A stretch of 64,000 nucleotides of DNA from positions 1-64,000 of the forward strand of contig NZ_VLNR01000025.1 in NCBI RefSeq assembly GCF_007489275.1, written 5' to 3'. Each line of letters opens with the position of its first letter. Position 1 is the stretch's first letter. The notes under the pieces are model-generated. The model was not told where the DNA came from, made no database searches, and saw only the letters and a list, made by a program, of their open reading frames with translations. The stretch is from Aquimarina algiphila. GTDB lineage: Bacteria > Bacteroidota > Bacteroidia > Flavobacteriales > Flavobacteriaceae. The position numbers and the translations under genes were made by a program. Positions 1-53,284 of this stretch are shown one piece after another.

Positions 1-642
1 AGGAGAGTCGATGAGAAGAAAAAGAAAAAAATCGTAATTTTAACACTGAAATAAACACGCTTTTGGGAACTGTTTTGCTATGCTCTATTTAAACAGGAAT
101 ACCCGGGTCAATTTCATAGGAATCTCCAACATAATTCACAAAGAATTACTACGTGGTCTATCTAAAGCAAAACCTCCACAAGAATTTTGCGATCTATTTG
201 AGGTCATTCTTAAAGATGAATATGAGAATACAATACAGAATACAAAAATGATCATTGAAGCAATAGATAAGAAGTTATCTACTTTAAAAGAAAATCAACT
301 GATGGTTGTAGAAAAGTATGCTTTGGGAAAAATAAAAGATGAACACTATGAAGCATTATTAACCAAGATGAATACTGAAATCAAAGAAACTGAACAAGAA
401 AAAACTAATTACGCGGTAGATGAAAACATGAAGGAGTACATATCTTTTGGGTTAACCCTATTAACTAATTTAGACAAAATCTACAAAGACGCTTCTATTG
501 ACGTAAAAACTAAACTACTCGGTTCATACTTCTCAAATAAGTTAATTTTCGATGAAAATAAATTCCGAACCCTACCATTTAGCGACCCAATAAAGCTTTT
601 GTGCAAGTATAGCAAGGGGTTTAAAGATTTTGAAAATGAAAA

Positions 643-668
643 GGGAGGCAATTTTTCAATTACCTCCC
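643..668 (-). terminator. Terminator of the tRNA operon
   Basis: Reading the minus strand, an 11-bp stem (GGGAGGTAATT pairing with AATTGCCTCCC, one G-U pair) closes a 4-base loop and is followed by TTTTCATTTT. It lies just past the 3' end of tRNA-Leu and also codes, on the other strand, for the last residues of the recombinase remnant. Confidence 0.7.
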
Positions 669-674
669 AGTCTG

Positions 675-759
675 TACTGAAGGCGGGACTTGAACCCGCA
701 CGGCCTTACAGGCCATTGGATTTTAAGTCCAACGTGTCTACCAATTCCACCACTTCAGC
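675..759 (-). tRNA. tRNA-Leu (anticodon UAA)
   Basis: The minus strand folds as an 85-base class II tRNA. The acceptor arm is GCTGAAG pairing with CTTCAGT (the first pair is G-U), with discriminator A at 675. The anticodon stem TTGGA/TCCAA encloses the loop CTTAAAA, giving UAA. A variable arm built on GGCC...GGCC and a T-arm with GGTTCAAGTCC follow. The 3' CCA is not encoded. It is transcribed after tRNA-Gly and ends at the border of the recombinase remnant, consistent with use of its 3' end as an integration site. Confidence 0.96.
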
Positions 760-778
760 ATGGTATATATTGTCTCAG

Positions 779-850
779 AGCGAAAGACGGGATTTGAACC
801 CGCGACCCTCACCTTGGCAAGGTGATGCTCTACCCCTGAGCTACTTTCGC
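779..850 (-). tRNA. tRNA-Gly (anticodon GCC)
   Basis: The minus strand gives a 72-base tRNA. The acceptor stem GCGAAAG/CTTTCGC has discriminator T, as expected for bacterial tRNA-Gly. The D-arm is GCTC...GAGC, the anticodon loop TTGCCAA lies within CACCTTGCCAAGGTG, and the T-loop is GGTTCAAATCC. No CCA is encoded. It is the first gene of a two-tRNA unit, 19 bases ahead of tRNA-Leu. Confidence 0.96.
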
Positions 851-886
851 AGTTTTTTAAGAACTTCGCAATCGTTATTGCGGATG

Positions 887-916
887 CAAATTTAAAACAT
901 TTCTAGTAATACCAAA
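887..916 (-). promoter_or_regulatory. Bacteroidota-type promoter of the tRNA pair
   Basis: On the minus strand TTTG (916-913) is followed after 18 bases by TAAATTTG (894-887), matching the TTTG-N19-TAnnTTTG consensus. The predicted start is near 880, about 30 bases before tRNA-Gly. Confidence 0.7.
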
Positions 917-9293: not shown

Positions 9294-10421
9294 TTATTTA
9301 GAAATCTCGTCGAGAATGGAAATATAATCAGATCGATTTGCCACAAAATCGCGTTCTGAAACATCCACTACCCTTACATTAAATTCTGGTTGTGATTTTA
9401 TAAACTGTAAATATCCCTTATTGATCTTATCAAGATATTCTGGAGGGATTTTTTGCTCATAATCTCTACCCCTTTTTTTTATGTTTTCCAAAAGACGTTC
9501 GGTATTTTGGTATAAGTACACATACAAACCTGGTTTTGCAAGGTTTCTATACATTAAATCAAACACCTTTTTATATAACTTAAATTCTTCTGACTGTAAC
9601 GTCACCTTAGCAAAAATTAAAGATTTAAAAACATCATAATCGCTTACTACAAAATCTTTAAATAAATCAAACTGAGCAATATCATCCTGTAAACGTTGGT
9701 AACGATCTGCTAGAAAAGACATCTCCAAAGGAAAAGCGTATCGCTCCATATCTTCATAAAACTTTGGTAAAAAAGGATTATCAGCAAAACGTTCCAGAAT
9801 TAATTTTGCATTAAATTCTCTTGCTATTAATTGTGCCAAACTTGTTTTACCTGCTCCAATATTTCCTTCAATTGTTAGGTATTGAAATCTTGACAAAGCA
9901 TATCTATCCTTTGGGTTTATTATTTTATCCTGTACTAATGTTACTTGCGAGTCATCAGAAGTTTCTCTCAATAACTGCTCTACTGTTTTCTTCAGAGTTG
10001 GATGCATTATATTTCCTGCAATTTCTGCTAATGGCTCTAAAACAAATTTTCGATCTTGCATTGCCGGATGGGGAACTTTTAATGCTGCAGTTGATAGATT
10101 TCCTTCGGAAGAAAAAATAATATCCAGATCAATTGTCCTAGCTTCATAACCATTACCTTCCGTCCTATTTCGACCTAAATCATTTTCAATTTCCAAAAGA
10201 AAATTTAATACTTTTTCTGATGGAAAAATTGTGTGAATACATATACATGCATTATAAAAGTCATCGCTATTAAACCCCCAGGCTGGTGTTTGATACACAC
10301 TAGAAATAGAAGTCACGTCTCCAATGCGTTTATAAATTTCATGTACTGCATTATGAAGAAAACTTAGACGATTTCCTATATTACTTCCTAACGAAATATG
10401 TATTTGATGAGGTGTTTTCAA
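9294..10421 (-). CDS. folK: FolK-deoxynucleoside kinase fusion
   Basis: Two enzymes are fused in one 375-residue chain. Residues 1-135 or so are 6-hydroxymethyl-7,8-dihydropterin pyrophosphokinase (folate synthesis): ISLGSNIGNR, the substrate-binding SSVYQTPAWGF, RTEGNGYEARTIDLDI and VPHPAMQDRKFVLEPL. Residues 180-375 form a dNK-type deoxyadenosine/deoxyguanosine kinase: P-loop IEGNIGAGKTSLA, ERFADNPFLPKFYED, the SDYDVFKSLIF segment, and KKRGRDYEQ as the arginine-rich lid. I recall this fusion as common in Flavobacteriia, so it is a lineage trait rather than an assembly error. It is divergent from the transporter gene at 10533 and convergent with the dipeptidase. Confidence 0.95.
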   Translation of the reverse strand: MKTPHQIHISLGSNIGNRLSFLHNAVHEIYKRIGDVTSISSVYQTPAWGFNSDDFYNACICIHTIFPSEKVLNFLLEIENDLGRNRTEGNGYEARTIDLDIIFSSEGNLSTAALKVPHPAMQDRKFVLEPLAEIAGNIMHPTLKKTVEQLLRETSDDSQVTLVQDKIINPKDRYALSRFQYLTIEGNIGAGKTSLAQLIAREFNAKLILERFADNPFLPKFYEDMERYAFPLEMSFLADRYQRLQDDIAQFDLFKDFVVSDYDVFKSLIFAKVTLQSEEFKLYKKVFDLMYRNLAKPGLYVYLYQNTERLLENIKKRGRDYEQKIPPEYLDKINKGYLQFIKSQPEFNVRVVDVSERDFVANRSDYISILDEISK

Positions 10422-10532
10422 GGCTGGATATTTATATTCTGGTAAGAACTCCTTATTTTTAAGAGCAAATTAAGCAAAACAAAACCACTTCACCTTATTT
10501 TTGCGTGAACTATTATTAACTATTATTTTATT

Positions 10533-11240
10533 TTGAACGAAACTCTTCTGGATTTAAAAGACAAACGTATAGCTTATCGAATATACCTTATTCTGGGAGC
10601 ACTTTTTATCTCATCATTGGTAGTCTCTAATCTTATTTTTCAAAAATTCTTTTATTGGGATTTTTTTGGGATGTATACTTTTGAAATTTCTGTGGGTATT
10701 CTACCCTATCCTATTACTTTTCTAATTACTGATATCATAAGCGAAATATTTGGTAAAAAAAAGGCAAATCAGATAGTAACAGCAGGAATCTTTGCTTCTT
10801 TCTTTTCGCTACTTATTGTATCTGCTTCATCATATGTTCCCGCCACAGCTTGGTCACCAATAAATGATGATATATTTAACCAGGTTTTTGGAGCCACTGT
10901 AATTGCTGTATTTGCTTCAATGATGGCTTATCTTTTTGCACAATATATAGACATTCAGGTTTTTCATTTCTGGAAACGCTTAACTAAAGGAAGACATCTT
11001 TGGCTTCGAAATAATTTTTCTACTTTTTCTTCACAACTTATAGATACTTTAACCGTGTTACTATTACTATGTTCTTTTGGCATCATAGAATGGGATCGTT
11101 TTGGAGTTTTATTACTTAATGGATTCTTATTCAAAGTACTTGTTGCTGCACTAGATACGCCTGTTTTATATGTAGCTGTATATATAATTAGAAGACGATT
11201 TAAACTGCAACAAGGAGGCGAATTGGATATGGAAATTTAA
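10533..11240 (+). CDS. Queuosine-precursor transporter (VUT/YhhQ family)
   Basis: The 235-residue inner-membrane protein has about six hydrophobic segments and the family landmarks LVVSNLIFQKFF, ILPYPITFLITDIISEIFGKK and, near the end, the SSQLIDTLTVLLL and LFKVLVAALDTPVLY segments. YhhQ relatives take up 7-deazaguanine precursors of queuosine, and substrate choice here is inferred from the family. The start is TTG at 10533, followed by NETLLDLKDKR. No ATG is near, and the next Met is inside the membrane region. It is divergent from the folK fusion, and the 110-base space between them presumably holds both promoters. Confidence 0.88.
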   Translation: MNETLLDLKDKRIAYRIYLILGALFISSLVVSNLIFQKFFYWDFFGMYTFEISVGILPYPITFLITDIISEIFGKKKANQIVTAGIFASFFSLLIVSASSYVPATAWSPINDDIFNQVFGATVIAVFASMMAYLFAQYIDIQVFHFWKRLTKGRHLWLRNNFSTFSSQLIDTLTVLLLLCSFGIIEWDRFGVLLLNGFLFKVLVAALDTPVLYVAVYIIRRRFKLQQGGELDMEI

Positions 11241-14110: not shown

Positions 14111-14194
14111 TTAATGATGCATTTACAAGTTCGTAGAACTAAAAAAAATCTAAAATTTACATCAAAAGAATCTGAAAATTATATTGTGATGCAG

Positions 14195-14202
14195 TAAATT
14201 TG
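14195..14202 (+). promoter_or_regulatory. Possible -7 element before small paralog A1
   Basis: TAAATTTG fits TAnnTTTG, 28 bases ahead of the ATG. No good -33 TTG is seen at standard spacing. Confidence 0.35.
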
Positions 14203-14230: not shown

Positions 14231-14668
14231 ATGAAACTACTTCATACTATTTTCCTCACCTGTTTTATCATAAACCTTAGTTATACTCAAACAAACAAAA
14301 ATGTTTTTTTTGATCAAAAAGCCATGATAGGTAAATTTCACACTATAGATGAACTAGAAAATTTAAAAAAAGGAGAGCTCATCAGACTATATACAGCCCG
14401 TGTTAATGAGATTGTAACGATTTTACCTTTTTTAGCCTTGACCAATGAACCTAATGTTAAACTATCTGATATAGGAATCAAAGAAAATTCTGATCATTTA
14501 AAAACACTCAATAAACACCGAGAAAGTACTCTAAAAACTTTTGAAAACACCAAAGTTTTGATTTCTGATTTTATTCCGTATGCCGATACTGAAAAAATTA
14601 TCTGGACTATACTATATTATGAAGAAGTAATCAAAAAAATTAGGATAGGCGCCAACGGAAATTTTTAA
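14231..14668 (+). CDS. Small secreted protein A1 (array family A)
   Basis: A 145-residue protein with a signal peptide (residues 1-20, ending NLSYTQ). It shares with the products at 16244 and 18538 a compact core. The shared parts are KFHTIDELxxLKKGELI, then LYxxRVxEIxTILPFLxLTNE, a DIGIKE turn, a variable helical stretch, and a closing ADTEKIIWTILYYEE, KKIRIG, GNF. The invariant C-terminal glycine-asparagine ending suggests a fixed functional C-terminus. The likely fold is a helical bundle. No known family was recognised. Unlike A2 and A3 it has no large B gene in front of it and has its own possible promoter. A terminator follows directly. Confidence 0.8.
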   Translation: MKLLHTIFLTCFIINLSYTQTNKNVFFDQKAMIGKFHTIDELENLKKGELIRLYTARVNEIVTILPFLALTNEPNVKLSDIGIKENSDHLKTLNKHRESTLKTFENTKVLISDFIPYADTEKIIWTILYYEEVIKKIRIGANGNF

Positions 14669-14688
14669 CTTTAAAAAGAAAAATGAAT

Positions 14689-14720
14689 AAAAAAGTCAGC
14701 TCGTACCGCTGATTTTTTTT
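14689..14720 (+). terminator. Terminator after A1
   Basis: AAAAAAGTCAGC pairs with GCTGATTTTTTT around a 7-base loop, and the stem runs straight into a run of eight T. Confidence 0.8.
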
Positions 14721-14925
14721 GTTCTAAAACATACGTTTTAATGTATTTTTCTAAGCTTGAGTTAACACAAAAAAATGTTAATACCTATTTAATCTTGTAA
14801 TCTTAGCCTTTTAATATCGACAACATAAACAAGTTTACAAACTACGAATTGTAAAATTTGAATTGATGTTTACAAAGAAAAGTCAGTGAAGATTTCTTTT
14901 AAAACTATCACCAAAAGATTAAATC

Positions 14926-16176
14926 ATGAAAAAAATATACATAATTACCGGATTATTACTTTTAGCCATTTCCTTCAATGGATTTTCTCAAAATGATATT
15001 TTTAGTATGAAATGGTTAAGAGGATGGACTAATTTCGAACCAAATAAAACCGACTATGAAGATTACGATAAAGTATTACCAAATATAATATCCGAAGATA
15101 CTTTTTTAAGAAGCGATCTGGTATATCTTATGTCGGGTGATATTTATGTAACTAATAATGCTACCCTTACAATACAAGAAGGTACCGTATTAAGAGGTGA
15201 TGTTGAGAATTCTGCTAATCTGATTGTAACCAGAGGAGCTAAACTTATTGCTAATGGCAGTAAGGCTTATCCTATTGTCTTTACATCTAACAAGTCTCCT
15301 AATTCAAGAAGTCATGGTGATTGGGGAGGTATTACAATTATAGGTTCAGGAAATGCTTACAGCACAGAAGGAGAAGGAGTAATCAAAGGAAAATTTGATC
15401 CCCTTTACACTTCTTATGGAGGAACAAATGAAAATGAAGAAACAACAGTGTTAAGATTTGTAAGAATCGAATACGCAGGCAAATCAACAAACGGACTTTC
15501 ATTATATGCATTAGGAAAGAAATCTATAATGGAAAATATAATGATTAGCTATTCTGCTGACGATTCTTTTCAATGGACTGGCGGTGAATCTGTTTCTAAA
15601 AATCTAATATCCCTTAAATCGAGTGATGACGATTTTGATTTTACTCAAGGCCATACATCAGAATTAATAAACATTCTTGCTATTAGACATCCATACATTA
15701 CGAGTGATAATGGTTCTTACGCCGTCGAAATTGATGGTTATGACAATAAAGTTGGATTTAAGAATACAAAAAAGTTAACCACCGTAGATATAACGGGAGC
15801 AACTTTAATATCATTGACTGATCAAATGAATTATAGCCATTCTAGAGCTGCTATATCGGTTAACAATCTTGCTGAACTTTATATTAATGATTCGACTATT
15901 TCTGGCTTTTCTGATGTAGTTCGATTAGATAAAACTTTTTCTACTCTAAAAATGGTTGACCATGCATTTAAAATGGATAATAGCTTTTTAAATGTTCATA
16001 AAGAAGGTGTCTATACTGAAAATAAAATAGCAAACGCTACTTTTTATTTACTTAAGTACAATCGTTTTACTAAGACTTTTCAAAATCCTGAAGAATTGTT
16101 TGAAGATCCTTTTGATAAAGGCAATCCAAAATTCACATTAAAGAATTCATTAAATAACTATATGGTAATTCAATAA
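14926..16176 (+). CDS. Secreted beta-helix-like protein B1 (array family B)
   Basis: A 416-residue protein with a signal peptide (residues 1-21, ending NGFSQ) that should be exported. After a short WLRGWTNFEPNK segment it has the features of Bacteroidota right-handed beta-helix surface proteins: SGDIYVTNNATLTIQEGTVL, NLIVTRGAKLIANGSKAYPI, VFTSN, GDWGGITIIGSG, TTVLRFVRIEYAG and NGLSLYALG. Later rungs (IMENIMISYSADDSF, KNLISLKSSDDDFDF) carry aspartate clusters that could bind calcium. It ends KNSLNNYMVIQ, with no recognisable type IX sorting domain. About half its residues match the product at 17205 by eye. A2 lies 67 bases downstream without a terminator, so B1-A2 look cotranscribed. No enzyme motif is seen; adhesion or carbohydrate binding is possible. 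Confidence 0.82.
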   Translation: MKKIYIITGLLLLAISFNGFSQNDIFSMKWLRGWTNFEPNKTDYEDYDKVLPNIISEDTFLRSDLVYLMSGDIYVTNNATLTIQEGTVLRGDVENSANLIVTRGAKLIANGSKAYPIVFTSNKSPNSRSHGDWGGITIIGSGNAYSTEGEGVIKGKFDPLYTSYGGTNENEETTVLRFVRIEYAGKSTNGLSLYALGKKSIMENIMISYSADDSFQWTGGESVSKNLISLKSSDDDFDFTQGHTSELINILAIRHPYITSDNGSYAVEIDGYDNKVGFKNTKKLTTVDITGATLISLTDQMNYSHSRAAISVNNLAELYINDSTISGFSDVVRLDKTFSTLKMVDHAFKMDNSFLNVHKEGVYTENKIANATFYLLKYNRFTKTFQNPEELFEDPFDKGNPKFTLKNSLNNYMVIQ

Positions 16177-16243
16177 ACGTATATCATTTTTAAAAAATCT
16201 AACAACTAGAATAAACAACTTACCTGATTATAATACTACTAAC

Positions 16244-16687
16244 ATGAAAAAACTAACTACTATAGTATTACTATTACTAAGCATTACTTCAATAAATGCC
16301 CAAACAAAAAATCAAAGATCAGTCTTGTACACTCCTGATAAATTAGTCACAAGGTTTCATACTATTGACGAATTACAAGAACTTAATAAGGGAGCTTTAA
16401 TTCAGCTGTATTTAGAAAGAACTAAAGAAATATTTATTGCAATACCGTATCTATCCCTTACTAATACCGCAGGAACAACACTAAGTGATCTTGGTATTGA
16501 AGAAAGCTCTGAGAATATCAAAGTGGTTGAAAAAAATATCGAGATAGCTCGTAGAGCCTTTGAATATACAGAAAACACGGTCAAAAAACTTGTTCCATAT
16601 TCGGATACAAGTGATATAATTTGGTCAATTCTATATTTTGAAGAGATGATAAAAAAAATGCGTTTAGGACCAAATGGAAACAACTAA
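16244..16687 (+). CDS. Small secreted protein A2 (array family A)
   Basis: A 147-residue paralog of the products at 14231 and 18538, with signal peptide (residues 1-19, ending SINAQ). The family core is kept (RFHTIDELQELNKGALIQLY, AIPYLSLTNTAG, SDLGIEESS, PYSDTSDIIWSILYFEEMI, KKMRLGPNGNN), but it is the most diverged of the three: GEL is GAL, and GNF is GNN. It sits behind B1, and the pair ends at the terminator at 16721. The fixed pairing B then A suggests that A acts with B, for instance as an export partner or complex subunit. This is inference only. Confidence 0.8.
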   Translation: MKKLTTIVLLLLSITSINAQTKNQRSVLYTPDKLVTRFHTIDELQELNKGALIQLYLERTKEIFIAIPYLSLTNTAGTTLSDLGIEESSENIKVVEKNIEIARRAFEYTENTVKKLVPYSDTSDIIWSILYFEEMIKKMRLGPNGNN

Positions 16688-16720
16688 ACCGTAAGACATG
16701 TACAACTTTTATGTACTCAT

Positions 16721-16752
16721 AAAAAAACAGCGCCGATAAGTGCTGTTTTTTT
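16721..16752 (+). terminator. Terminator after B1-A2
   Basis: AAAAAAACAGC pairs with GCTGTTTTTTT (11 bp) around a 10-base loop. The right arm is itself the T run. Confidence 0.8.
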
Positions 16753-17204
16753 ATAAGTACACCTCAAATAAAGAGTCTTAAAAAGTTACATTTTTATCAC
16801 AAAAAACACCATTTTAAGATAATTTTTGAATAATTAGTGTTAAAAATACTCGTTTTTTTAACGATTAAACACCTTTTCAAAGAAGATAATTGAGCATAAA
16901 AAGGTTCAAAATGAGGGGAAAAGACCCCTTTTTTGTCAAAAACCTTTAACATTTACAAATTACTTTCAGCATTTACAACAAAAACACCTAAACAACCTAA
17001 TTTACTGATATTAAGATCAATAAATATTTATCTAGTAGGAATTTTACTCATAATATTTTACTAATTTAAGTTAAAATAACGACCAACGTACAAAGTTTAC
17101 GGTAAACACGTAACCAACTTTGATCCAAACTCCCATATCTTAGTATTCCGAAAAATTGAGAGAAAGAAATTTCTTCCAAAAGTTTAACCCCAAAATAACC
17201 TATT
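16753..17204. other. Long intergenic region before B2
   Basis: No gene was found in these 452 bases. They are very AT-rich, with repeated ATTTACAA words near 16950-16980 (CATTTACAAATTAC, CATTTACAACAAAA). A GTTTAC-G-GTAAAC inverted repeat lies at 17095, about 100 bases before B2. This is the longest non-coding stretch of the window and probably holds the regulatory region of B2-A3. Confidence 0.6.
17095..17107. repeat. GTTTAC inverted repeat upstream of B2
   Basis: GTTTAC and GTAAAC are separated by a single G, giving a perfect 6-bp dyad. It is framed by CAAA on the left and by AACTTTG some 12 bases to the right. The position about 100 bases ahead of the B2 ATG fits an operator. The region before B1 has a related GTTTACAAAC word near 14835, but not the full dyad. 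Confidence 0.35.
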
Positions 17205-18479
17205 ATGAAAAAAAGATGTTTTCTTTTAACAGCTTTTGTATTACTATTATTTCCTTTTTTAACCACAGCACAAGATTTTAGCGAGAATAACGATGGATGG
17301 ACTAAAGGCTGGACAAGCTTTGCTCCTAACAAAGTAGACTATCCAGAAGCCGATGAGAAATTACCTAACGTTATTTCTAATCATACTTATTTAACAAATG
17401 ATAGCGTTTACTTAATGTCTGGAGATGTATATGTTACTCCAGGTGCATCATTAACAATACAAGAAGGAACTATAATCCGTTGTGATTATGAGAATCCTGC
17501 AAATCTTATTGTCTCTAAAGGGGCTAAATTAATCGCAATTGGATCAAAAGCGTATCCTATTGTATTTACATCTAGTAAAGCATCTAAATCAAGAAACAGT
17601 GGAGATTGGGGTGGTATAACTATTGCTGGATCTGGAAAAGTAAATACTGTTTCTGGAAATGGTATAATCGAGGGGAATTTCAATCCTCAGTATTCTGTAT
17701 ATGGAGGAAATATGCCAGACGAGGAAACTACAATTTTAAGGTATTTAAGAATTGAATTCTCTGGTAATACAGCTAAGAGAAAAAAAGGCACAAGTGGATT
17801 ATCACTTTATGGTATTGGCACCACATCAATCATAGAAGATATCATGGTTAGCTATTCAGGTCAAGATTCATATAACATTCATGGAGGAAAAAACAGTATA
17901 AGAAACCTAATATCTCTTAAAGCCCAAAAGAATGATTATCATATCTCAGAAGGGTTTAAAGGAACATTAAGCAGTATCATCGCAGTACGTCACCCATACA
18001 TTAATAGCCCTCAAGGATCTTATGCCATAGAAGTAGATGGTTATAATAAAGAACTTGGTTACATAAGACCAAATACTGTAACAGATGTTACTATTAGCAA
18101 TGCAACGCTGGTAAATCTATCTGACAAAACTAACTATCAACATACAAGCGCAGCTATTTTTGCATCAAACTCTGCTCTAACGTATATTCACAACTCTAAG
18201 ATATCTGGTTTCTCTGATGTTGTAAAATTTGATAAATCATTTACATCATTAGCGGTAATGCAAAAAGCATTTATGATGGATAATAGCTTTTTTAATATTC
18301 ATGGCGAAGGCGTAGACTCGAGCAACAAAACAATTAACAACACTTTAGATATTTTAAAATATAATAGGTTTACAAAAAGCTTTGTCGAAGTTGCTAACCT
18401 ATTTAGTGATCCGAATAATTCAATATCTCCAAAATTTAAACTGAAGCAGTCTTTAAACAATTATATGGTAATGCAATAA
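17205..18479 (+). CDS. Secreted beta-helix-like protein B2 (array family B)
   Basis: A 424-residue paralog of B1 with signal peptide (residues 1-22, ending TTAQ). It shares GWTSFAPNKVDYPEADEKLP, YLMSGDVYVTPGASLTIQEG, NLIVSKGAKLIAIGSKAYPI, GDWGGITIAGSGKV and GLSLYGIGTTSIIEDIMVSY, and the same end, KQSLNNYMVMQ. A short basic insertion (NTAKRKKGT) distinguishes it. The aspartate-rich rung of B1 is only partly kept here (KAQKNDYHISEG). A3 follows after 58 bases with no terminator between, repeating the B-A unit. The extracellular or outer-surface location is inferred from the signal peptide and the beta-helix pattern. Confidence 0.82.
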   Translation: MKKRCFLLTAFVLLLFPFLTTAQDFSENNDGWTKGWTSFAPNKVDYPEADEKLPNVISNHTYLTNDSVYLMSGDVYVTPGASLTIQEGTIIRCDYENPANLIVSKGAKLIAIGSKAYPIVFTSSKASKSRNSGDWGGITIAGSGKVNTVSGNGIIEGNFNPQYSVYGGNMPDEETTILRYLRIEFSGNTAKRKKGTSGLSLYGIGTTSIIEDIMVSYSGQDSYNIHGGKNSIRNLISLKAQKNDYHISEGFKGTLSSIIAVRHPYINSPQGSYAIEVDGYNKELGYIRPNTVTDVTISNATLVNLSDKTNYQHTSAAIFASNSALTYIHNSKISGFSDVVKFDKSFTSLAVMQKAFMMDNSFFNIHGEGVDSSNKTINNTLDILKYNRFTKSFVEVANLFSDPNNSISPKFKLKQSLNNYMVMQ

Positions 18480-18537
18480 AAAATGTGAACTGATTTATAT
18501 AATAGGGTCAATTCAACACTATAATTTAGTATACACT

Positions 18538-18978
18538 ATGTCAAAAATTTTAACAAGCTTTATTTTATTTATAACAACAAGTATAACTTTTGGGCAACAA
18601 GCGAACCCAGCTGTATTTTTTACCCAAAGAGATCAAATCAATAAATTTCATACCATAAGCGATCTTCAATCATTAAAAAAAGGAGAACTAATTAATTTGT
18701 ATCAAGATCGAGTAAAAGAAATCATGACGATACTACCATTCTTATCACTCACCAATGAAGCCGGTGTTCGATTAGGTGATATTGGTATTAAAGAAGATTC
18801 AAGGCACCTTAAAGTTCTAAAAAACACTACAGAATCGATACGTGATAATCTGGAAACAATAGACACAATGGTCGAAGAATTAATTCCATACGCTGATACC
18901 GAAAAAATTATATCGACGATTTTATATTATGAAGAAATCATAAAAAAAATAAGAATCGGAGTCGACGGAAATTTTTAA
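18538..18978 (+). CDS. Small secreted protein A3 (array family A)
   Basis: A 146-residue product with signal peptide (residues 1-19, ending ITFGQ) and the family A core: KFHTISDLQSLKKGELINLY, RVKEIMTILPFLSLTNEAG, DIGIKEDSRHLK, PYADTEKIISTILYYEEII and KKIRIGVDGNF. It is closer to A1 than to A2, especially in KKGELI, TILPFL and the GNF end, so the duplication order is not simply left to right. It closes the B2-A3 unit and is followed by a strong terminator. No outside family was recognised. Confidence 0.8.
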   Translation: MSKILTSFILFITTSITFGQQANPAVFFTQRDQINKFHTISDLQSLKKGELINLYQDRVKEIMTILPFLSLTNEAGVRLGDIGIKEDSRHLKVLKNTTESIRDNLETIDTMVEELIPYADTEKIISTILYYEEIIKKIRIGVDGNF

Positions 18979-19026: not shown

Positions 19027-19058
19027 ATAGAAGCGACAATTGTCGCTTCTATTTTTTT
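19027..19058 (+). terminator. Terminator after B2-A3
   Basis: ATAGAAGCGACAA pairs perfectly with TTGTCGCTTCTAT (13 bp, a continuous palindrome) and is followed by seven T. Confidence 0.85.
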
Positions 19059-46549: not shown

Positions 46550-47566
46550 TTATTTAGAATTAACGGCAGGACATTTACAATTCCATCTTTCCTTACGTTC
46601 TCCAAAATCATACCCCAAAGTAATTTGGTGAAAACCACCATCACTAAGTACAACAGAATTAGATTGATAACTATAGGTATATCCAACCAACCATTTTTTA
46701 TAATTCACCCCTACAAATGGTGTTATATACTGTAATTGTTGACTTTCTACCGAGGTTCCATTTTGAGAAAATTCTGCTCCATCCAAACTACGTCTGTAAG
46801 AAATCCCACCCCATAAAGTTCCAAAGTTAAAATCTTTATATGCTTTTAAATTAGCATCAATAGTACTTTCTTTGGTTTCATCTGTAGCCTGATACAGAAT
46901 AGAAGGCTCTAGGCTCAAAATATTCCCAATACCAAATAAATATCCTAGTGAAAATACATATCTACGTTGATTATTAGATTCCTGCACCGGAGTATCATTA
47001 TTAAAAGTATCTCGAGTTGTCGGTAAGATATTTTTGACCGTAAAATGAGCATACCATTCTAAAAAATTATATGACAATCCTACATCTACATTGTAGTAAA
47101 AATCTTTTTGAACTCTATCTAATATTACTGGATCAGGATCAGAAGGATCATCAAGCCCTCTTAAATCTAAATTAGACTGTATGAAGCCTGCACTCATACC
47201 AAAGGATAGCATATTTAAATCTGTTCTATCTCTAGAAAACAATAGATGATACGCATACGTAGCATAAAACCCCGTTTGAGAAAACCTTCCATTTTCATCT
47301 CTATACAGGATTCCTCCCCAACCAGATTTATCACCGGTTCTAAAATTAAGATTCAATGTTTGTAAGCTAGGCGCATTATCTACATCAAACCATTGCTTAC
47401 GAGCTGTAAGTCTGATCTTATTGGCATTGGCTGCACCTGCCATTGCAGGATGCACCAGATATAAGTTATCTGAAAGATAATCAGAGTATATAGGTATTCC
47501 TTCTTGCGAAAATCCAAATTGAAACACTAACGCTAAGAAGACTACATAAAATATTTTTAAGTTCAT
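46550..47566 (-). CDS. PorP/SprF-family type IX secretion-linked membrane protein
   Basis: A 338-residue outer-membrane barrel protein with signal peptide (residues 1-20, ending FGFSQE). The family start pattern IPIYSDYLSDNLYLVHPAMAGA is followed by KIRLTARKQWFDVDNAPSLQTL, a string of beta strands and the closing GGFHQITLGYDFGERKERW. PorP/SprF proteins anchor adhesins such as SprB exported through the type IX secretion system. Usually the partner adhesin gene is next to them, but none is present here. It could serve a protein encoded elsewhere or be a paralog with another role. The end WNCKCPAVNSK is cysteine-bearing. Confidence 0.9.
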   Translation of the reverse strand: MNLKIFYVVFLALVFQFGFSQEGIPIYSDYLSDNLYLVHPAMAGAANANKIRLTARKQWFDVDNAPSLQTLNLNFRTGDKSGWGGILYRDENGRFSQTGFYATYAYHLLFSRDRTDLNMLSFGMSAGFIQSNLDLRGLDDPSDPDPVILDRVQKDFYYNVDVGLSYNFLEWYAHFTVKNILPTTRDTFNNDTPVQESNNQRRYVFSLGYLFGIGNILSLEPSILYQATDETKESTIDANLKAYKDFNFGTLWGGISYRRSLDGAEFSQNGTSVESQQLQYITPFVGVNYKKWLVGYTYSYQSNSVVLSDGGFHQITLGYDFGERKERWNCKCPAVNSK

Positions 47567-51605: not shown

Positions 51606-52319
51606 ATGAAGAGAATACTACTTGTTTTATGCCTAGCAGCATTTTCTGCTTCGTTTGCTCAAATACCAACAAGTTTACTCGTACCCACCTCAAGAGTAAA
51701 CACTTTTGATGAATATGATGGAAGTATTTATCTAAAATCTCGTTATAAAGAATCTAGCGTTATTGATGAAAAATCCAGCGCTTATGATGCCAAGTTAAAA
51801 TATAACATTTATAACGATGGATTAGAACATACATCTAGATCAGGTGAATTGTATGAATTAGTTAAAAGACCAACCGTACATGCCCGAATCGATGGTGATT
51901 ATTTTTACTATTGTAATTTTAAAAGTCCTAGAGGACTTGATAGAGAGGGATATTATGTATTAGTAGAGTTAACAGATAGATATCGTATTTACAAAAGATT
52001 TACGCTAGAAATTAAAGACCCTGAAAAAAAAGCAATAGTAAGTAGTGGTATTGCAGAACCAGGATCAATTAGAACTATTACTTCTTACTATATAGAAGAG
52101 GCTGAAGTGATTATGGAATTGCCTCTCAATAAAAAAGAAATGCTAGCAACTTTTAGCGATAAAGAAAATGAACTTAAGGAATATATTAAGAAAGAAAAAA
52201 TTCGTCTAAAAAAGGAAGAGGACCTTATTCGCTTTGTTGCCCGATATAATGCATTAAAAAGTGATGAAACTTCCCAGAATAGAAGTCTCCTAAGCAATGC
52301 TACTTCAGGTAGAAATTAA
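51606..52319 (+). CDS. Secreted protein, tandem paralog 1
   Basis: A 237-residue protein with signal peptide (residues 1-18, ending SASFAQ). It has an N-terminal beta-rich half (YDGSIYLKSRYKESSVIDEKS, YDAKLKYNIYNDGLEH, DYFYYCNFKSPRG, REGYYVLVELTDRYRIYKRF). The C-terminal half starts ITSYYIEEAEVIMELPLNKK and becomes a long basic-acidic coiled coil (KENELKEYIKKEKIRLKKEE, then DLIRFVARYNALKS). It is shared with the product at 52583, the second half almost unchanged. No known family was recognised. It is not obviously membrane-bound. A long hairpin lies between the two copies, so they may be transcribed separately. Confidence 0.8.
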   Translation: MKRILLVLCLAAFSASFAQIPTSLLVPTSRVNTFDEYDGSIYLKSRYKESSVIDEKSSAYDAKLKYNIYNDGLEHTSRSGELYELVKRPTVHARIDGDYFYYCNFKSPRGLDREGYYVLVELTDRYRIYKRFTLEIKDPEKKAIVSSGIAEPGSIRTITSYYIEEAEVIMELPLNKKEMLATFSDKENELKEYIKKEKIRLKKEEDLIRFVARYNALKSDETSQNRSLLSNATSGRN

Positions 52320-52582: not shown

Positions 52583-53284
52583 ATGGGAAAAACACTACTC
52601 TTATTTTTAACAATATCATCTTTATCATTTGCCCAATTACCGAAAAGTTTAGTTACAGACATTCAAGAAGATTATACATATAGTGATTATACCGGATCTG
52701 TTTATATGAATCCTAGCTATAAAGAATCTAGCGTTATACATGAAAAGTCAACTACATATCATGCAAAATTAAGATACAACATTCAAACTGACGCTATAGA
52801 ATATAAGTCTCAATCAACATTATATGAATTAGTCAAAAACCAAACTACTCATGTAAGAATTGAGGAAAACTATTTCTACTACTGTAATTTTAAAAATCAA
52901 CGAGGCCTGAGCAGACCTGGATATTATGTATTAGTAGAATTGACAGATTTATATAGTATTTACAAAAAATACTCTCTTAGCATAACTGATGTTGAGAATC
53001 AAGGAATTAGTGGCAGCGCTGTTAAACCTGGTAAAATCAGACAAGTTATCACCTATTATATAGAAGAAGCAGGAGTGATCATGGAACTCCCTTTAAATAA
53101 AAAAGAAATGTTAGCAACATTTAGCGATAAAGAAAATGAACTCAAGGAATACCTCAAGAAAGAAAAAATTCGTTTAAAAAAGGAAGAGGACCTTATTCGC
53201 TTTGTTGCCAGATACAATGCTTTAAAAAGCTCTGATTCTAGTCCTTCGCACAGCCTTTTAAGCAATACCGATAGAGCAAATTAA
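52583..53284 (+). CDS. Secreted protein, tandem paralog 2
   Basis: A 233-residue protein with signal peptide (residues 1-17, ending LSFAQ), the tandem copy of the product at 51606. Shared are YKESSVI, EKS, YHAKLRYNI, YELVK, YFYYCNFK, PGYYVLVELTD and, very strongly, the last 90 residues (IMELPLNKKEMLATFSDKEN, then KKEKIRLKKEEDLIRFVARY). The first half differs much more (LPKSLVTDIQEDYTYSDYTG). The function is unknown. The gene is followed by a hairpin at 53308 and is convergent with tsaB. Confidence 0.8.
   Translation: MGKTLLLFLTISSLSFAQLPKSLVTDIQEDYTYSDYTGSVYMNPSYKESSVIHEKSTTYHAKLRYNIQTDAIEYKSQSTLYELVKNQTTHVRIEENYFYYCNFKNQRGLSRPGYYVLVELTDLYSIYKKYSLSITDVENQGISGSAVKPGKIRQVITYYIEEAGVIMELPLNKKEMLATFSDKENELKEYLKKEKIRLKKEEDLIRFVARYNALKSSDSSPSHSLLSNTDRAN

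Follow-up and report, generated by a model that had tools for sequence, protein, structure and literature searches.

A stand-alone tandem array of paired secreted proteins in Aquimarina algiphila, probably related to RemG and RemF

A stretch of 64,000 nucleotides of Aquimarina algiphila (contig NZ_VLNR01000025.1, assembly GCF_007489275.1, positions 1 to 64,000; hereafter the window) carries five consecutive genes for secreted proteins of two families, the small A and the large B. They probably form a stand-alone tandem array of B-A units, in which B is related to RemG and A to RemF, and which once consisted of three units and has lost its first B. This reading draws on homology, the pairing of the two families, unit-wise duplication, the operon context in relatives and predicted folds, that is, on sequence comparison and modeling; what we infer beyond these are the RemF and RemG names, an A-B complex, its compartment and any gliding role in A. 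algiphila. The features of the array, all on the plus strand, are as follows.

14141-14197, plus strand: what is left of the first B (type 1), a gene otherwise lost: its last 18 codons and stop, reading KKNLKFTSKESENYIVMQ-stop
14231-14668, plus strand: A1, probably RemF-related small helical secreted protein, an orphan whose B is lost; 145 residues, 67% identical to A1 of locus L069
14689-14719, plus strand: terminator-like hairpin 3′ of A1; -11.9 kcal/mol, z -4.0
14926-16176, plus strand: B of type 2, probably RemG-related beta-helix secreted protein; 416 residues
16244-16687, plus strand: A2, a type-2 A protein, probably RemF-related, paired with the B at 14926-16176; 147 residues
16719-16754, plus strand: terminator-like hairpin 3′ of A2; stretch -20.7, z -7.4
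17205-18479, plus strand: B of type 3, probably RemG-related, chosen for the structure model (predicted local distance difference test, pLDDT, 90.4); 424 residues
18538-18978, plus strand: A3, probably RemF-related, type 3, chosen for the structure model (pLDDT 91.1, all helical); 146 residues
19027-19052, plus strand: terminator-like hairpin 3′ of A3; stretch -18.1, z -5.2

An earlier note on this DNA had described three A proteins of about 146 residues alternating with two B proteins of about 420, and had pointed to a common ending of the A proteins; both descriptions hold. The five open reading frames lie on the plus strand, with A proteins of 145-147 and B proteins of 416 and 424 residues, and the A endings are KKIRIGANGNF, KKMRLGPNGNN, and KKIRIGVDGNF. 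Within the window, the A proteins are 43-60% identical among themselves, and the two B proteins are 53% identical over 425 columns (expectation value, E, 6e-162). All five start with a Sec-type signal peptide, as judged by eye, and no C-terminal sorting domain of the type IX secretion system (T9SS; CHU_C, TIGR04131, or TIGR04183) was found in them at E up to 1. The same note had described each B as followed by an A within 70 bases without a terminator, and each unit as closed by a terminator of its own, which agrees with the folding analysis: the two B-A gaps (16177-16243 and 18480-18537), 67 and 58 nucleotides long, show no fold beyond shuffled sequences (z +0.4 and -0.7), and hairpins with a T-run on their 3′ side follow all three A genes (14689-14719, 16719-16754, and 19027-19052). 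Because a hairpin and T-run come after each A and none lies between B and A, B-A likely forms one transcription unit. Nothing conclusive on promoters was obtained from a sigma-70 scan, which stayed at the shuffle level (28 found vs 28.8 expected), or from a single TAnnTTTG match at 14195, upstream of A1.

The alternating order A-B-A-B-A, by which the array had been described, is real as a gene order, but it begins with an A only because one B was lost; judged by its sequence, the array was originally B-A-B-A-B-A and is now damaged. Between an upstream AsmA-like gene and A1 lie 181 bases that contain the frame 14141-14197. Its product, KKNLKFTSKESENYIVMQ, matches the C-terminal end of the first-position B of locus L108 in a gap-free alignment, 15 of 18 residues being identical. 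Its score against 13 B tails is 68, which was reached by none of 300 dinucleotide shuffles (best 54). When four other loci with an orphan A1 were checked, B remnants upstream of A1 were also found in L078 and L115 (above 60 shuffles), and none above shuffles in L101 or L102. L115 further contains a second A copy with stop codons (10270-10668, minus strand); it belongs to G061, the genome with the closest A, in which the first B is absent too.

In a survey of the genus covering 54 loci of 52 Aquimarina genomes, every A and B was assigned the type of the closest of the three L069 units. The order B1-A1-B2-A2-B3-A3 is found on one contig in 11 loci, and the full three-unit set is divided between two contigs in G010 and G038. 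Twenty loci have B1-A1-B3-A3 and eight have B3-A3 only (including two split halves and one of uncertain type), and A1-B2-A2-B3-A3 occurs solely at the window locus. Adjacent B and A are of the same type in all 101 B-A pairs, three of them with a small margin; the unit order 1-2-3 has no exception in the 54 loci, and at least one complete B-A pair is present in each of the 52 array genomes. G031, G035, G040, G052, and G055 are A-bearing Aquimarina with a divergent type, located elsewhere or on short contigs, and weak A matches in G108 (E 0.0057), in G113 (E 0.0012), and on contig C223 of the window genome were disregarded. Recent loss of the array from Aquimarina lacking A and B was considered and set aside; in eight such genomes the AsmA-like gene is 40-47% identical to that of the window, and no A, B, or other window neighbor was recognized within 1.5 kb of it, remnants not having been specifically sought.

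The pairing extends beyond the genus. In a family sample of 395 Flavobacteriaceae genomes with completeness of at least 90%, searched with profiles from 97 A and 98 B sequences (E ≤1e-6 for A and ≤1e-70 for B), A is present in 119 genomes and B in the identical 119; since the weakest listed B has an E of 2.4e-131, the B cut-off does not decide this result. A same-strand B lies within 1.5 kb at 121 of the 133 places of A, downstream at 115 and upstream at 6, where two of the 115 are the orphan first A of arrays (the window genome and G042). In trees of 92 adjacent pairs (59 B-A and 33 A-B, drawn from 97 A rows), the two arrangements are split for both proteins, with a support of 0.994 for A and 1.0 for B, and A and B agreed on the nearest unit in 40 of 40 tests. 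The distance matrices of A and B are also correlated (r 0.93), as a species history common to both proteins would lead one to expect, and this is not counted as evidence of contact. The partnership of A and B, which had been proposed from the strict B-then-A order, is upheld by the shared genomes, the neighborhood counts, the type matching in Aquimarina, and the agreement of nearest units; these sequence data support that A and B are partners in evolution and that units duplicate as B-A. In a sample of the phylum, A was found in 17 of 296 genomes, all Flavobacteriaceae, and 87 pattern matches on viral contigs included no relative.

A scan of named genomes gave 160 relatives, of which the best 76 loci were kept (L131-L206), and A and B are adjacent on one strand in 74 of these 76. 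The exceptions, L181 and L195, have an A without B or spr-like genes within the stretch; in L173 (6992-8728, a Bacteroidia bin), A and B are spaced by 3 nucleotides, and no spr-like genes occur within the stretch. More distant homologs of B also exist, mostly at E 1e-18 to 1e-48 with a two-sequence B profile, whereas the true B of the family sample all have E ≤2.4e-131 with the 98-sequence profile. Two such B-like proteins with lipoprotein-like N-termini are encoded in L129 (G000 contig C256, 489-9000), each after a gene for more than 900 residues that resembles a TonB-dependent receptor by eye, and neither has an A beside it; they point to a broader family of beta-helix proteins lacking A.

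Gene order in other genera is what links the pair to known names. Outside Aquimarina, A usually precedes B. In 41 of the 76 loci (L131-L171; Aquimarina, Tamlana, Algibacter, and others) the order is B-A, and the neighbors vary between groups. The remaining 35 (L172-L206) contain an A of the wider family, followed in 33 by a B downstream on the same strand. In 32 of these 33 loci, the gene after B is from a single family of approximately 480 residues (SprC-like), whose L176 member matches Pfam CHU_C with 50.9 bits (cut-off 27) and TIGR04131 with 32.9 bits, slightly below the cut-off of 35. Where the record is long enough, there follow a family of approximately 820 residues (SprD-like), which in L176 has a PorP/SprF domain, and then the first part of a large protein. 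The corresponding gene of G071 encodes 3258 residues, and the gene after it, for 330 residues, is PorP/SprF-like by eye. Two loci of Flavobacterium succinicans (L179 and L180) have the order A-B-SprC-like-SprD-like. The gliding operon remF-remG-sprC-sprD-sprB-sprF of F. psychrophilum is reported to be conserved in several Flavobacterium species and had two of its promoters tested (PMC9723704), and FP0012, FP0013, and FP0014 are remF, remG, and sprC, respectively (PMC5350093). As the order A-B-SprC-like-SprD-like-large protein-SprF-like is that of remF-remG-sprCDBF, A is most likely RemF-related and B RemG-related by position. The proposal of a candidate undescribed module in the earlier note is not supported: relatives of the pair head the published order of the gliding operon in other Flavobacteriaceae. 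F. johnsoniae and F. psychrophilum themselves are not represented in the best 76 of the 160 relatives. Profiles made from the window proteins alone match the pairs of G070, G071, G073, and G074, with E 5.0e-29 to 1.6e-27 for A and 5.4e-72 to 4.4e-68 for B; on this homology, the window genes are taken as paralogs of the pair that lies upstream of sprC-like genes.

The window pair thus resembles RemF/RemG of Flavobacterium in being two secreted proteins with genes side by side and in having relatives directly upstream of an SprC-like gene (L179, L180, and 30 further loci), but differs in that it lies away from sprCDBF, is reversed to B-A, is tandemly repeated, and has lost one B. The window genes are not filed as remF and remG themselves because they do not stand upstream of sprC. 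By the title of a 2011 paper by Rhodes, Pucker, and McBride, remF, remG, remH, and remI are reportedly redundant genes for gliding motility, and copies that stand alone, as in the window, would fit a second set. In the portions available of the literature searched, no biochemical role or mechanism was found described for RemF or RemG; movement of SprC along the gliding track has been reported (PMC12635249), and another report concerns other spreading genes (PMC9950754).

In the window genome, SprC-, SprD-, and SprB-like genes are located on another contig, C5, and no A or B is found in the 370 bases upstream of them, which is all the contig has there. This cluster (L215, G000 contig C5, 370-8255) has tandem SprC-like genes for 695 and 684 residues upstream of SprD, and two SprC-like genes are seen only in L215 and L220 among 21 Aquimarina spr clusters. 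With an SprD profile made from ten A/B-linked loci and the window genome, two candidates being scored per genome, a high-scoring SprD (best E ≤4.3e-139) occurs in 119 genomes of the family sample, exactly those with A and B, and 98 more have an SprD at approximately 1e-75 to 1e-108 and neither A nor B. This two-humped split of the scores may reflect lineage or functional type. A dependence of A and B on one class of SprD is not claimed, since the profile comes from A/B-linked loci and G035, G052, G040, and G046 are exceptions; G046 (55% complete) has a high-scoring SprD and no A. Relatives lacking A and B still carry SprC-, SprD-, and SprB-like genes, which suggests that the A-B pair is not universally needed.

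Neither A nor B matches any family of Pfam or NCBIfam, enzyme families included, above the curated cut-off, in line with the remark that A has no recognizable family; sub-threshold matches to DUF851, LMP, DUF4969, SCP2_2, and others were regarded as chance, and a sequence search of the PDB gave no match for either. The model of A3 is all helical. Against solved structures, A reaches a best E of 0.6 by Foldseek (helical cytokines) and a best Z of 5.4 by VIA, which is under the level meaningful for helical bundles, and the resemblance to viral nucleoprotein-associated domains (VIA Z approximately 5) was put down to a common helical arrangement. The type-3 B is modeled as a right-handed parallel beta-helix, which agrees with the beta-helix-like character noticed earlier in its sequence. 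This model superimposes on the AlgE4 epimerase over 274 residues with a root-mean-square deviation of 3.6 (VIA Z 22.1), its Foldseek matches are weak (best E 6.6e-4), and it is about equally close to tailspikes, NosD, and lyases, with approximately 10% identity. These proteins share the predicted fold of B but differ from it in sequence, B having no enzyme family match, and because they score nearly equally, the fold leaves the function of B unfixed. A is thus predicted to be helical and B to be a right-handed parallel beta-helix.

In the scheme that we consider probable, both proteins would leave the cytoplasm through Sec, with no type IX sorting domain, and would act jointly at the outer membrane or within the periplasm, where the beta-helix of B may serve as a scaffold and the helical bundle of A as its companion. 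On the gliding track, the pair might help the SprB/SprC adhesin machinery to be assembled or propelled. The extra copies could be variants, either redundant or specific to an adhesin, of the pair found elsewhere at the head of remFG-sprCDBF. A more specific version can be offered tentatively: an obligate RemG/RemF-type unit may have been uncoupled from the SprB operon and multiplied, so that B1-A1, B2-A2, and B3-A3 of Aquimarina act as swappable adaptors, each for a different adhesin or condition, which would explain the loss of half-units alongside the retention of at least one complete pair.

Several points weigh against the RemG/RemF-related array. It is flanked by the AsmA-like gene and lysE and is unlinked to spr genes, and no A or B was found in the 21 Aquimarina spr clusters as read, namely that of the window genome and 20 others, of which eleven come from array-bearing genomes, six from genomes lacking A, and three from genomes with a divergent A. 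The RemF and RemG names rest on gene order, and window A3 is 27-36% identical to A of the wider family. The co-occurrence of A and B partly owes to shared ancestry, and as the best 10 candidates for A and the best 4 for B were scored per genome, copy numbers are lower bounds. Families found alone had been named in advance as a case against partnership, and places of this kind do exist (12 of 133 for A, one of them at a contig end, and 22 of 141 for B), but the genome always holds the other family. Among the 52 array genomes, a B lacks its matching A in eight, and an A its matching B in five; these genomes were found through A, and the keeping of a pair in each is therefore uninformative on genomes without A, a class that includes the 9 of 66 genomes of the genus in which A was not found. 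Divergent A and B accompany a distant SprD in G035, G052, and G040, so that A and B are not strictly bound to one SprD class.

A might instead be a chaperone devoted to the folding or export of B, close to the export helper suggested in the earlier note, with the pair having no direct part in gliding. This would suit the short and terminator-free B-A gap, the presence of A and B in the same 119 genomes, and the small size and predicted helical fold of A. The chaperone reading is rather unlikely, because the pair stays together even in other genera, where the order is reversed to A-B and 56-921 nucleotides lie between the matches, because it heads an sprCDBF-like cluster, and because RemF was found in a surface-protein fraction of F. 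psychrophilum (PMC5682007), which would be odd for a transient chaperone.

Still less probable is a pair in which B, with its beta-helix, acts on or binds carbohydrates and A inhibits or regulates it, like the plant pectin methylesterase and its inhibitor, which combine a beta-helix with a helical bundle. The nearest folds of B do include sugar-acting beta-helices such as AlgE4 together with phage tailspikes and lyases, a pectin methylesterase from an inhibitor complex ranks fourth by Foldseek (E 1.7e-3), and A is modeled as a helical bundle; on the other side, unrelated right-handed beta-helices (NosD and adhesins) score nearly as well, identity is at approximately 10%, and no enzyme family exceeds the cut-off. 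That the units are variable surface antigens or resemble toxin-immunity pairs, and persist for their variation and not as machine parts, would account for the gain and loss of units between species but is hardly credible given signal peptides on both partners (by eye), constant unit types and order across 54 loci, and an spr-linked version spread over many genera.

Elsewhere in the window, 46550-47566 (minus strand) encodes a PorP/SprF-like membrane protein with a weak match to the SprD barrel (E 3.1e-7), another T9SS-type gene approximately 28 kb from the array. An open frame at 80-895 (plus strand), whose first part resembles the C-terminal end of a site-specific recombinase by eye, continues antisense over tRNA-Leu and tRNA-Gly genes (674-850, minus strand) and is possibly the remnant of an integrated element. 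Two tandem secreted-looking paralogs of approximately 235 residues (51606-52319 and 52583-53284, plus strand) share a near-identical stretch in their C-terminal half.

The family is known by name from genetics, and what is new are the stand-alone, reversed, tandem B-A arrays, the near-perfect pairing of types, the lost first B, and the predicted folds. Near-perfect pairing, unit-wise duplication, and these modeled folds turn two accessory genes into a putative two-protein complex that can be tested. The Aquimarina arrays, with their typed units and natural half-losses, reveal which combinations evolution has tolerated, and the relatives that lack A and B and carry SprC-, SprD-, and SprB-like genes would provide natural controls.

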